Source: Clostridiales bacterium UBA1246 (lineage in GTDB: Bacteria; Bacillota; Clostridia; Oscillospirales; Oscillospiraceae). From it: 5,698 bases of DNA. A program made the position numbers and the translations under genes. Positions 2,488-5,698 of this stretch are shown one piece after another. The notes under the pieces are model-generated. The model was not told where the DNA came from. It did not search any database and saw only the letters and a program-made list of their open reading frames with translations. The stretch lies in assembly GCA_002308315.1 (NCBI GenBank), contig DBWE01000205.1, positions 3,789 to 9,486 of the forward strand. The letters are read 5' to 3'. Positions within the stretch are counted from its first letter, which is position 1. Each line of letters starts with the position of its first letter.

Positions 2488-3510
2488 ATGGACATAAGCT
2501 ACATTCGCCGCATCCTCGGCGGCGCCAGCTTCAAAAAGCTGACTTCCGTCGTTGACAAAGTATGCGAAAAAACGGGCAAAAACCGCCTTTCCGTTTTTCT
2601 CGATATACTCCGCTGTACGAAAAAATACGGCGCCGGGTACTACGATTATCTCATTTTCGGCTTCTATGATCTTCCCGCCGAAAAGCGCGCCACCTACGTC
2701 ACGCGCATGATAAGCCGCAAGCTGAACCTGTTTCTGAACGACGCGGAATACATGCACTGCTTTGACAACAAGGACGAGTTCAACGAGATCTTCGCGAAGT
2801 TCATTCGCCGCGGCTGGATCCGTGCCGACAGGGCGGACAGGGAAAGCCTTCGCGCCTTCTGCGCGGGCAAGGCGGAGATATTCGCCAAGATACGGGACGG
2901 CGAGTGCAGTCACGGCGTGGAGCGCATACGCATGGCGGACTGGCCGGATTTCGACGCTCTGTACGAGCACATAAAGAGCTGCGGCTACGGGCTTATCGAG
3001 GACGTGGTGGACCAGCACCCGGACCTCGAGGCCCTGCATCCCGGCTCGGTCAACTGCATGCGCATCATCACCCTGCTCGACGATTCCGGCGAGCCTCACT
3101 GTCTTTACGCCGTGCAGAAAATAGGCATGGGCGACTCCTTCGTGGACTGCAACTGCATGTTCGCTCCCGTCGACGTGGAGACCGGGGTGATAAAATATCC
3201 CGCTCATTCGGGCGAGACCCCGCTCGGCATCATCTATAACGAGCATCCCGACTCTCACATCACCATACCCGGCTACCGTCTGCCCTTCGTTCCGCAGGCA
3301 GTGGCGATGTGCCTCGAGGCCGCCAGGATCGTCCCTCAGGTGCGCTACGTCGGCTGGGACGTGGCGATAAGCCGGGACGGCCCGGAATTCATCGAGGGCA
3401 ACACCTACTGCGCCCACGATTTCTGGCAGCTGCCCGTCCATACTCCCGACCGCGTCGGTATGCTTCCCGTATTCAGAAAGTACGCCGCCGGCCTGAAGGA
3501 CGTGCTTTGA
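2488..3510 (+). CDS. Sugar-transfer-associated type ATP-grasp protein, putative carboxylate-amine ligase
   Basis: This is a 340-residue soluble protein of the ATP-grasp family often named 'sugar-transfer associated' (alpha-L-glutamate ligase related). ATP-grasp enzymes form an acyl-phosphate and join it to an amine or thiol; the substrate here is unknown. The family N-terminus is recognisable: FKKL...VCEKTGK (about 16-31), YGAGYYDY (47-54) and HCFDNKDEFNEIF (about 90-102). The ATP-grasp core shows IEDVVDQHPDLEALHPGS with Glu171, the NCMR motif with Asn189 and Arg192, and a C-terminal metal/ATP site VGWDVAIS...EFIEGN with Asp291, Glu303 and Asn305. GGGAGG (2477-2482) lies 5 nt before the ATG. 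Lying between alr and a MurT/GatD-type pair, it may act on a peptidoglycan precursor; known ATP-grasp ligases such as enterococcal D-aspartate ligase do so. That role is inference. A polysaccharide-related role is the main alternative. Confidence 0.8.
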   Translation: MDISYIRRILGGASFKKLTSVVDKVCEKTGKNRLSVFLDILRCTKKYGAGYYDYLIFGFYDLPAEKRATYVTRMISRKLNLFLNDAEYMHCFDNKDEFNEIFAKFIRRGWIRADRADRESLRAFCAGKAEIFAKIRDGECSHGVERIRMADWPDFDALYEHIKSCGYGLIEDVVDQHPDLEALHPGSVNCMRIITLLDDSGEPHCLYAVQKIGMGDSFVDCNCMFAPVDVETGVIKYPAHSGETPLGIIYNEHPDSHITIPGYRLPFVPQAVAMCLEAARIVPQVRYVGWDVAISRDGPEFIEGNTYCAHDFWQLPVHTPDRVGMLPVFRKYAAGLKDVL

Positions 3511-3577: not shown

Positions 3578-4954
3578 ATGAACAAGCTGCGCTACGTCCT
3601 CGCTTTTATCACGGCCAAGCTTTCCGTGATCGCGCTGAAGCTGACCGGCCATCCGGCCACCAATCTGCCGGGGCAGCTGGCTCTGCGCATCTGCCCGGAT
3701 TTTCTCGGCAGGGTGCCCAAGCCCGAACGCATCATCGCCGTTACCGGCACCAACGGCAAGACCACCCTCACCAATCTGCTGTGCGACCTGCTCGAGCTGA
3801 CGGGCGAAAAGACGGTATCGAACCGCTACGGCTCCAACCTCGCCTCGGGCATCGTGACGGCGCTGCTGTCGGGCTGCTCTCCCCTCGGCCGCCAGCGCGC
3901 GACCGTGGGCGTGATCGAAATAGACGAGCGCTCCGCTCCGAGGGTATTCCCCCGTATGACGCCGCAGCTGCTCGTGATAACCAACCTGTTTCGGGACTCC
4001 ATCATGCGCAACGCCCATCCCGCGTATATTGCCGACCTGCTCAGCCGCTATATCCCCGCCTCCGTCAGGCTGCTGGTCAACGCGGACGATCTTATCTCCT
4101 GCCGGGTCGCTCCTCAGTGCGAAAGGGAGTATTTCGGCATAGGGCCCATGCCCGGGGACACGGTGGAGTGCGTCAACCTGATCAACGACATGCGCATCTG
4201 CCCGATATGTCACGGCACGCTGCGCTACGACTACCGCCGCTATCATCACATAGGCAGGGCAGTCTGCACCTCCTGCGGCTTCTCCTCCCCGGAATACGAC
4301 TACGCCGGCAGCGAGGTCGATTTTGACAAAATGACCATGCGCGTCTCCGACAAGGGCGGGAGCGCGGTATACGGCCTGCTCAACGACAGCGTGTTCAACT
4401 GCTACAATCTGCTCTGCGCCGTCGCGGTCATGCGTTCTCTCGGCTTTGAGCACGAGCGCATCGCGGCCCTCGCGGCGCAGTGCCGCATCGTCGCCACGCG
4501 GCACGAGAGCGTAAAAGCGGGGGACGTCACTCTCGTGATGCAGATGGCCAAGGAGAAAAACGCCCTTGCCTGCTCCCGCGCCTTCGACTACGTCGCGGGA
4601 CGCGAGGGCGAAAAAGAGATAGTGCTTATGATGAACTGCCTCGGCGACGTAAAGCACTGGTCGGAAAACGTATCGTGGCTGTACGACTGCGATTTCGAGT
4701 TTCTCAACAAGCCCGACATACGCTGCATCGTCGCCACCGGCGCAAGGGCGCTGGACTACAGGCTGAGGCTTCTGCTGGCGGGCGTAGCCGAGGAAAAGAT
4801 AATATGCGTCGAAGACGAAATGGAGGCCGTTTCCCGCCTGCCCTTCGTCAAGGGCGATCAGGTATATCTCTTCTACGGCACCGACTCGCTCGTTTTCGCC
4901 CAAAAGGTACGCGCCCGCATCGAAGCGCTCGCAAGGGAGGCCGCCGAGAAATGA
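3578..4954 (+). CDS. murT: MurT-like Mur ligase, divergent lipid II isoglutaminyl synthase subunit
   Basis: MurT is the ATP-using subunit that activates the D-glutamate alpha-carboxyl of lipid II for amidation, working with GatD at the cytoplasmic membrane face. This 458-residue protein has the Mur ligase P-loop TGTNGKTT (56-63), an IEIDE segment, a Cys4 zinc ribbon (C208, C211, C230, C233; CPIC and CTSC pairs) and a DUF1727-like C-terminus with SWLYDCDFE (Asp370/Asp372). One of those aspartates is probably the residue that completes the GatD active site in canonical complexes. Several MurT signatures differ: NLFRD (136-140) is followed by SIMRNAHP instead of QLDRYGE, and the usual KNPAG-type motif is replaced around 321-328 by MQMAKEKN. 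The stop overlaps the next start in ATGA. It is clearly a MurT homologue; whether it performs the canonical amidation is doubtful given its partner. Confidence 0.85.
   Translation: MNKLRYVLAFITAKLSVIALKLTGHPATNLPGQLALRICPDFLGRVPKPERIIAVTGTNGKTTLTNLLCDLLELTGEKTVSNRYGSNLASGIVTALLSGCSPLGRQRATVGVIEIDERSAPRVFPRMTPQLLVITNLFRDSIMRNAHPAYIADLLSRYIPASVRLLVNADDLISCRVAPQCEREYFGIGPMPGDTVECVNLINDMRICPICHGTLRYDYRRYHHIGRAVCTSCGFSSPEYDYAGSEVDFDKMTMRVSDKGGSAVYGLLNDSVFNCYNLLCAVAVMRSLGFEHERIAALAAQCRIVATRHESVKAGDVTLVMQMAKEKNALACSRAFDYVAGREGEKEIVLMMNCLGDVKHWSENVSWLYDCDFEFLNKPDIRCIVATGARALDYRLRLLLAGVAEEKIICVEDEMEAVSRLPFVKGDQVYLFYGTDSLVFAQKVRARIEALAREAAEK
4933..4940 (+). promoter_or_regulatory. Ribosome binding site of the gatD-like gene inside murT
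   Basis: AAGGGAGG lies 10 nt before the ATG at 4951. Together with the ATGA stop/start overlap it fixes the start and suggests coupled translation, giving balanced amounts of the two subunits. Confidence 0.65.
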
Positions 4955-5661
4955 AAGTCGAAATACTCTTCCCGGAGGTCGCCAACCTCTACGGCGATCT
5001 TATGAATCCGGAATATCTCCGCCGCTCGTGCCCCGAAATCGAGCTCGTGGAGACCTCTCTGCGCTCCCGTCCCCTTTTTGCCGACGAAGAGCCCGCGCTG
5101 ATATACATGGGCTCCGTGACCGAGGAGGGCATCACCCTCGCCGTCGAGGCGCTCACGCCGTACCGCGAAAGGCTGATAAGCCTCATCGGCTCCGGTCAGC
5201 TCTTTCTCATCACCGGCAACGCCCTGGATATATTCGGCGAGGACATAACCGCCGACAGCGGCCGGACGCAGAAGTGCCTCGGCATATTCCCCACCCACGC
5301 GAAGTATAAGATGATGGACCGCTACAACGCGCTTTACGTCGGTTCCTTCGGCGATATGGACATCGTAGGCTTCAAAAGCCTGTTCGGGCACAGCTACGGC
5401 AGCGTGGAGCCGCTGTTCCGCACGCTGCGCGGCGACGGGCTGAACGAAAGCGAAAAGGGCGAGGGCATACGCAAAAACCGCTTCATGGCCACCTACGTCA
5501 CCGGCCCCCTGCTGATACTCAATCCGCCCTTCACCAAATGGCTGCTCGGCGAAATGGGCGCCGGGGACTGCTCTCTTGCCTTCGAGGACGCCGCCACGGA
5601 GCTTTACAGGCAGCGCGTTTCCCAGTTCAAGGATCCCTCAACGGGAATTATCTACCATTAA
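4951..5661 (+). CDS. gatD: GatD-like class I amidotransferase-fold protein lacking catalytic residues
   Basis: GatD is normally the glutaminase subunit that feeds ammonia to MurT. This 236-residue protein matches it along its length: NLYGD near the start, a nucleophile-elbow region (84-96), CLGIF, DIVGF (137-141), and EGI...TYVTGP (to 186) followed by a conserved-looking C-terminus. The active site is altered. The canonical ICGGYQ elbow reads LITGNALDIFG, placing Thr88 at the nucleophilic Cys (Cys94 in S. aureus GatD). The canonical YLHGP reads YVTGP, placing Thr184 at the catalytic His (His189). The conserved GFENHGG reads GFKSLFG, with Leu144 at that His. Arg124 lies near the place of the substrate-binding Arg128. 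The frame is intact and codon use matches its neighbours, so it is not a decayed pseudogene. I infer a structural, substrate-binding or differently reacting partner for the MurT-like protein. Confidence 0.82.
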   Translation: MKVEILFPEVANLYGDLMNPEYLRRSCPEIELVETSLRSRPLFADEEPALIYMGSVTEEGITLAVEALTPYRERLISLIGSGQLFLITGNALDIFGEDITADSGRTQKCLGIFPTHAKYKMMDRYNALYVGSFGDMDIVGFKSLFGHSYGSVEPLFRTLRGDGLNESEKGEGIRKNRFMATYVTGPLLILNPPFTKWLLGEMGAGDCSLAFEDAATELYRQRVSQFKDPSTGIIYH

Positions 5662-5665
5662 AAAA

Positions 5666-5698
5666 CCGCCGGTAAAGTTTTCAGAACTTTACCGGCGG
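5666..5698 (+). terminator. Rho-independent terminator at the operon end, probably bidirectional
   Basis: CCGCCGGTAAAGTT pairs perfectly with AACTTTACCGGCGG (14 bp) across a TTCAG loop, 4 nt after the gatD-like stop codon. The window ends on the last stem base, so the plus-strand T-run cannot be seen. Five A residues at 5661-5665 would give a T-run on the minus strand, suggesting use by a converging gene as well. Confidence 0.8.

Follow-up and report, generated by a model that had tools for sequence, protein, structure and literature searches.

Recurrent loss of the glutaminase site of MurT/GatD, fixed across whole clades

Several Gram-positive bacteria cannot do without the amidation of D-glutamate (D-Glu) in lipid II, a reaction that has been described as glutamine-dependent. 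In ammonia-dependent carbamoyl phosphate synthetase I, a glutaminase domain has been kept after the loss of its nucleophile, and ammonia is the donor. The lipid II isoglutaminyl synthase of S. aureus and S. pneumoniae is a pair of proteins, the ligase MurT and the glutaminase GatD. Cys94 of S. aureus GatD sits between a strand and a helix, in the elbow T92-I93-C94-G95-G96 (PMC5871853), and glycines of canonical GatD have an oxyanion role (PMC5871853, PMC6085368). Asp349 of MurT is described as the third residue of the catalytic triad, and the changes C94S or C94G in GatD and D349N in MurT abolish activity in vitro (PMC6113224). Another study instead proposes Asp32 of S. pneumoniae GatD (residue 19 in S. 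aureus) as the third triad residue, and reports that the MurT change Asp355Ala in S. pneumoniae merely lowered activity (PMC6085368). In S. aureus, the MurT/GatD complex with C94G has no glutamine-dependent activity and keeps NH3-dependent amidation at pH 8.5; the same source records no use of ammonia by this complex at pH 7.5, and neither subunit works alone (PMC3266927). Archaea with pseudomurein have a MurT-like protein without GatD (PMC11915815).

We analysed 5,698 nucleotides from Clostridiales bacterium UBA1246 (contig DBWE01000205.1, positions 3,789 to 9,486); we refer to this whole stretch as the window and count positions from its first letter. It contains these features:

1282-2460, + strand: alanine racemase gene alr (PF01168/PF00842), upstream of the ATP-grasp gene and of murT-gatD, all of them on one strand
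2488..3510, + strand: ATP-grasp ligase (PF14397, profile match), directly upstream of murT
3578..4954, + strand: MurT-like Mur ligase partner, 458 amino acids (PF08353, 86.5 bits; PF08245, 24.9 bits; both above the cut-off)
3746..3766, + strand: ATP-binding motif GTNGKTT of MurT, kept (equivalents of Lys59/Thr60 in 19 of 19 aligned rows)
4199..4276, + strand: four-Cys zinc ribbon of MurT (Cys208, 211, 230 and 233), kept in 19 of 19 rows
4661..4678, + strand: SENVSW in MurT, with Asn364 at the position of the triad residue Asp349 (MurT alignment)
4951..4954, + strand: ATGA overlap of the murT stop and the gatD start, read from the sequence
4951..5661, + strand: GatD-like subunit, 236 amino acids, without the catalytic Cys or His (alignments, profile search and AlphaFold2 model)
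5110..5124, + strand: G54-S-V-T-E58, replacing the Gly-Gly-Gly oxyanion strand of canonical GatD (alignment)
5212..5229, + strand: T88-G89-N90-A91-L92-D93, replacing I93-C94-G95-G96-Y97-Q98 (alignment of 121 rows)
5368..5397, + strand: GFKSLFGHSY (residues 140-149), replacing GFENHGGRTY (alignment; Lys142 in 121 of 121 rows)
5491..5508, + strand: TYVTGP (residues 181-186), with Thr184 at the position of the catalytic His189 (alignment)
5666..5698, + strand: perfect 14-bp inverted repeat with a 5-base loop, terminator-like, right after gatD and at the end of the window and contig (read from the sequence)

The gatD frame starts inside the stop codon of murT, and both genes are under purifying selection (dN/dS of about 0.10 for gatD and 0.07 for murT, relative to a genome of the same genus). 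This rules out a pseudogene and bears out the claim of the first-pass annotation that the subunit is intact and coupled to its MurT partner. The AlphaFold2 model of the subunit (pLDDT 94) has the predicted fold of GatD (TM 0.87 to 6gs2_A). MurT passes the domain cut-offs (PF08245, for the middle domain, needs 24 bits, and PF08353, for the MurT_C domain, 25). Both proteins miss the NCBIfam equivalog cut-offs by far: MurT scores 171.9 bits against 800 for NF045635 and 186.7 against 800 for NF052464, and GatD scores 30.5 against 400 for NF045636 and 44.4 against 450 for NF052463. We consider the window protein to be GatD-related rather than GatD proper, because it has neither of the two defining catalytic residues, Cys94 and His189. 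Such Cys-less proteins are annotated as glutamine amidotransferase or CobQ in database homologue listings.

HMMER and two MAFFT alignments, all gapless at the elbow, place Cys94 of S. aureus GatD on Gly89 of the window protein, Ile93 on Thr88, Gly95 on Asn90, and Gln98 on Asp93; His189 falls on Thr184, likewise in a gapless alignment. The AlphaFold2 model has a strand at residues 85-88 and a helix at 89-95, and since Cys94 sits between a strand and a helix, Gly89 is the elbow residue. The first-pass annotation, which started from LITGNALDIFG (residues 86-96, at 5206-5238) and TYVTGP (at the coordinates above), had put the expected Cys at Thr88, which is off by one. Its other assignments, His189 to Thr184 and the His of GFENHGG to Leu144, agree with the alignment. 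So does its argument from equal motif spacings: recounted by hand, LGI to IVGF is 32 residues and IVGF to (H/T)GP is 49 in both the window GatD and S. aureus GatD.

A homologue search with the window protein found 721 proteins, and we aligned the best 120 of them with the window (121 rows, the first homologue being a 100% match to the window). The first-pass annotation had asked whether its Thr positions and motif hold across a clade: T88-G89 is invariant, N90 is present in 121 of 121 rows, position 93 is Glu in 78 rows and Asp in 43, and position 184 varies (Ile in 62, Thr in 53, Leu in 5 and Met in 1). No row has a Cys at 88 or 89 or a His at 184, and the window protein lacks the residues needed for glutaminase activity, as the annotation had claimed. 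The oxyanion strand now mostly reads G-(S/T)-x-T-E, and the GFENHGGRTY segment mostly GFKS(Q/L)F(G/T)H(S/T)Y. Furthermore, 16 positions are conserved in at least 117 of the 121 rows and differ from the consensus of eight canonical rows, and 8 of these 16 lie at the old active site (57, 58, 88-91, 142 and 145). This implies that, to judge from the alignment, the site has been rebuilt and has not just decayed.

We searched genomes at two depths. Among 40 relatives (the window's own genome included), 20 gave a match, one of them a fragment. A search of 243 genomes from the class matched 124 at E 1e-8, using a window-type model that may miss canonical GatDs far from it, and 39 of the 124 carry a Cys-less GatD. 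We read 127 loci from this sample, plus the window; 40 are Cys-less (39 genomes, 21 family codes) and 88 are Cys-bearing (25 family codes), and seven family codes hold both. The Cys-less loci include kinds A, B and D. A-type loci, such as the window, have the elbow TGNAxE (more broadly TGNxxE/D) and the MurT segment SEN; B-type loci have TGN(S/A)xE/D and SRKY(F/Y)TSET; and D-type loci mostly have TGT(S/T)xxL, with TNTF(Y) in MurT (five TGT loci and two near variants). One locus (L046) combines a TGTAMD elbow with an A-like MurT, and two (L048 and L057) have an INN elbow; the latter are the most divergent kind, with no TxxxGP motif and with long branches in the MurT tree. Among the best 120 of 3844 B-type homologues, which include one from the cultured species Pseudoflavonifractor phocaeensis, 119 have Gly at the Cys position and one has a gap there; at the His position 114 have Thr and 6 have Ile. 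Neither a Cys-elbow pattern nor an HGP/HGS pattern occurs in any of the best 120 of 810 D-type homologues. The first-pass annotation had noted that close homologues with the Cys would point to an isolated mutation, and none of the 120 listed window-type homologues carries it. Together with the listed B-type homologues (119 of 120, with one gap), this rules out an isolated mutation or a sequencing error.

Four loci of one family (f56) have lost both Cys and His and retain GFENH and the Asp of MurT. Six (L083, L088, L091, L110, L117 and L163) retain the His and have Gly or Ser in place of the Cys, and the MurT Asp is present in all four of these that are readable; their sequences suggest an early stage of the same loss. 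Two loci that combine a TGN elbow with the MurT Asp (L052 and L158) are possible intermediates.

We also noted some unusual loci. The TGN-elbow locus L052, with its MurT Asp, still has GFENH in GatD. One genome (G278) has two different Cys-less GatDs (L047 and L164). Four loci (L022, L068, L099 and L138) keep the Cys elbow and have Tyr, Asp, Asp and Gln, respectively, in place of the catalytic His.

In MurT, the equivalents of the Mg-binding residue Glu108 and of Asn267 are kept in all 19 aligned rows, as are the ATP-site and zinc residues listed above. We placed the Asp349 position by counting along S. aureus MurT (GRD349TSW). All 11 window-type rows have Asn there and all 3 B-type rows have Glu; the 4 canonical rows, like S. 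aureus, have Asp. We then compared 149 loci, leaving out L002 (a duplicate) and L024 (a fragment); 7 of the 149 have no readable MurT. All 91 Cys-bearing loci have Asp at this position and 36 of the 51 Cys-less loci do not (26 Asn, 9 Glu and 1 Thr), so within this set the MurT Asp is lost only where the GatD Cys is gone. The 15 Cys-less loci that keep the Asp include two window-like loci (L044 and L047) and five other TGN loci (L052, L055, L058, L062 and L158). The argument from Asp349 is not absolute, because the equivalent of S. pneumoniae GatD Asp32 is kept, as Asp16, in 119 of 121 window-type rows and because Asp355Ala had a partial effect in S. pneumoniae.

We built a quick tree of MurT, with long branches, from 97 rows (49 Cys-less and 48 canonical, thinned from 91). 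It requires at least four changes of Cys state. On one side of a branch with SH-aLRT support of 97 are 42 Cys-less rows, while f56, f29 and L083 lie apart, among canonical rows; L081, the sister of L083 with the same genus code, has the Cys. A single origin of all Cys-less GatDs was rejected by an AU test (p 4e-11) that used this quick tree, which we had already inspected. Judging from these sequences, the Cys of GatD has been lost more than once.

The Cys-less pair also seems to have no canonical counterpart in the same genomes. When we searched with a model of canonical GatD, all 11 Cys-less genomes of the family/order set and 37 of the 38 in the class set (48 of 49 in total) gave no canonical GatD. 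Eight control genomes matched at E below 1e-130, which is expected by design because the model was built from them. The other matches to this model lie in open frames of 491-690 amino acids, which we took for CobQ by length alone. In the one exception, G051, a canonical pair (L095) accompanies a Cys-less copy with a fragmented MurT (L117). We therefore rejected a second canonical pair as the source of glutaminase activity, none having been found in 48 of 49 genomes; the window's own genome is 67% complete. In summary, the glutaminase site of MurT/GatD has been lost recurrently, and the loss is fixed across whole clades. Apart from Thr88, the original observation was real and wider than noted, being clade-wide, recurrent and accompanied by replacement of Asp349 in MurT.

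MurT and gatD were together in every context that we compared. Other neighbours were shared in a few contexts at most, and we dropped the idea of a fixed partner operon. In the window's genus and in G124, whose protein is 47% identical to the window's, the ATP-grasp gene directly precedes murT; in G040 it is about 150 bases from the MurT match. In a search of 51 genomes, strong relatives (E below 1e-40) were found in 4 of 15 A-type and 6 of 12 B-type genomes (10 of 27 together), and in none of the 20 canonical or 4 D-type genomes; weaker matches occurred in three more A- or B-type genomes (G003, G012 and G068). This co-occurrence with A- and B-type Cys-less GatDs is suggestive only, because the matches share genera and families. 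Our guess is that the ATP-grasp ligase is part of the same system as murT-gatD.

How does the locus compare with the systems described above? It lacks the equivalents of Cys94 and His189 of S. aureus and S. pneumoniae MurT/GatD, it has Asn in place of Asp349, and its oxyanion glycines and GFENH loop are changed, so no glutaminase activity would be expected. Like the C94G mutant of S. aureus (PMC3266927), it has Gly at the nucleophile position and a MurT partner; unlike that single change, the loss seen here is natural and clade-wide, extends to the His and the Asp, and comes with a new conserved motif. It resembles carbamoyl phosphate synthetase I in retaining a glutaminase domain without the nucleophile, with an unrelated ligase. 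It resembles the pseudomurein archaea (PMC11915815) in having a MurT relative without a glutaminase partner, but there GatD is absent, and here it is kept and remodelled.

Our preferred reading, to which we give not quite an even chance, is that the window pair is a glutamine-free ligase that would amidate the alpha-carboxyl of D-Glu in lipid II with free ammonia, GatD being a non-hydrolysing partner that MurT needs. MurT would phosphorylate the alpha-carboxylate of D-Glu, as proposed for S. aureus, and ammonia would be the donor in the window's clade. The remodelled pocket (T-G-N-x-x-D/E, Lys142 and Glu58) would hold no thioester and may shape the mouth of a channel or an ammonium site, and GatD was likely retained because MurT requires it. 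Outside the window's clade, amines or amino acids may be the donors. By analogy, the C94G experiment favours an ammonia-dependent ligase with a non-hydrolysing GatD, since that complex used NH3 at pH 8.5 and still needed GatD. Several points count against this reading: the pocket has acquired invariant, specific residues beyond what simple use of ammonia would need, the S. aureus complex is reported not to use ammonia at pH 7.5 (PMC3266927), and 15 of the 51 Cys-less loci keep the MurT Asp.

Other donors are suggested by the lineage-specific MurT segments and by the presence of Acetobacterium (D-type) among the Cys-less clade. It is possible, and in our estimate more probably wrong than right, that what Cys-less pairs attach to the D-Glu alpha-carboxyl of lipid II is an amine or an amino acid instead of ammonia, with the pocket as a donor site that differs by sub-clade; in Acetobacterium, the pair would be the ligase for the bridge diamino acid of B-type peptidoglycan. 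B-type bridges are held on the alpha-carboxyl of D-Glu, and the murein of Acetobacterium woodii is, we presume, B-type. Neither point is stated in the papers that we consulted on the wall type of A. woodii or of Eubacteriaceae, and PMC4156110 gave no fact on A. woodii. In agreement with a donor site, sub-clades A, B and D differ from one another in their motifs, both at the old elbow and in the MurT segment facing GatD. The D-type GatD of genome G118 is identical (100% over the 224 residues compared) to an A. woodii protein; 18 of 19 genomes with G118's genus code have a D-type GatD, the single miss being 81% complete; and the canonical-model search found no canonical GatD in G118. The A. woodii pair adjoins mnmA and glmM (both above a cut-off) and a glmS-like gene. 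B2-alpha is among the peptidoglycan types of Eubacterium, for which A types are on record too (PMC11382707, Table 1), and the peptidoglycan of E. limosum has Ala, Glu, Lys, Orn and Ser (PMC4791908). The ATP-grasp gene beside murT would also fit another donor, but its counts are not independent of kinship and the D-type genomes have no such relative; moreover, the Acetobacterium link concerns the D-type and not the window's A-type. Negativicutes carry a polyamine on the D-Glu alpha-carboxyl (PMC10628300), but it is probably made in another way, as most diderm Bacillota lack MurT: 63 of the 73 Omp85-bearing genomes of the phylum, which we took as diderm Bacillota, had no MurT_C match, and we dropped a link to these walls. 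(The other 10 of the 73 had a match, loci L168-L177.) Less likely still, and unlikely as a whole, is that Cys-less pairs are diversified lipid II D-Glu alpha-carboxyl ligases whose ex-glutaminase binds ammonia, amines or amino acids according to sub-clade and which, in Acetobacterium and its relatives, would include the missing enzyme that starts the B-type bridge.

We consider it quite improbable that GatD is a bare scaffold or regulator and the pair has left peptidoglycan amidation, or that MurT acts on another carboxylate. The MurT loop RDQxDR(Y/F)GE, which in S. pneumoniae lies at the interface with GatD (PMC6085368), has become RDSxxRN(A/G)HP in most window-type rows, and the missed equivalog cut-offs would fit as well; yet the Cys-less pair stands in for the canonical pair in the 48 genomes, the MurT ligase residues that we checked are kept, and in Eubacteriaceae the pair is found with glmM. 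That the window protein still hydrolyses glutamine through other residues is far less probable again. Asp16 remains, as does a conserved His147 (110 of 121 rows, where canonical rows have Lys or Arg), but no Cys is conserved elsewhere in GatD (the best, Cys27, is in 84 of 121 rows), the oxyanion glycines are altered, and the glutamine-capturing Arg128 aligns with Asp123, beside an invariant Arg124, so it is lost or shifted.

In openly accessible literature, surveyed mainly by listing, we found no description of a Cys-less GatD or of a link between MurT and B-type walls. A widespread and repeatedly evolved form of MurT/GatD without glutaminase activity would mean that the need for the glutaminase subunit goes beyond the supply of ammonia. 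It would also correct annotations as glutamine amidotransferase or CobQ. If ammonia or another amine is used, these bacteria would have a glutamine-free route to this part of the wall. The pair would be a concrete candidate for modifying the alpha-carboxyl of D-Glu in bacteria whose peptidoglycan is unusual, among them A. woodii, which has been described as genetically tractable (PMC9307552).
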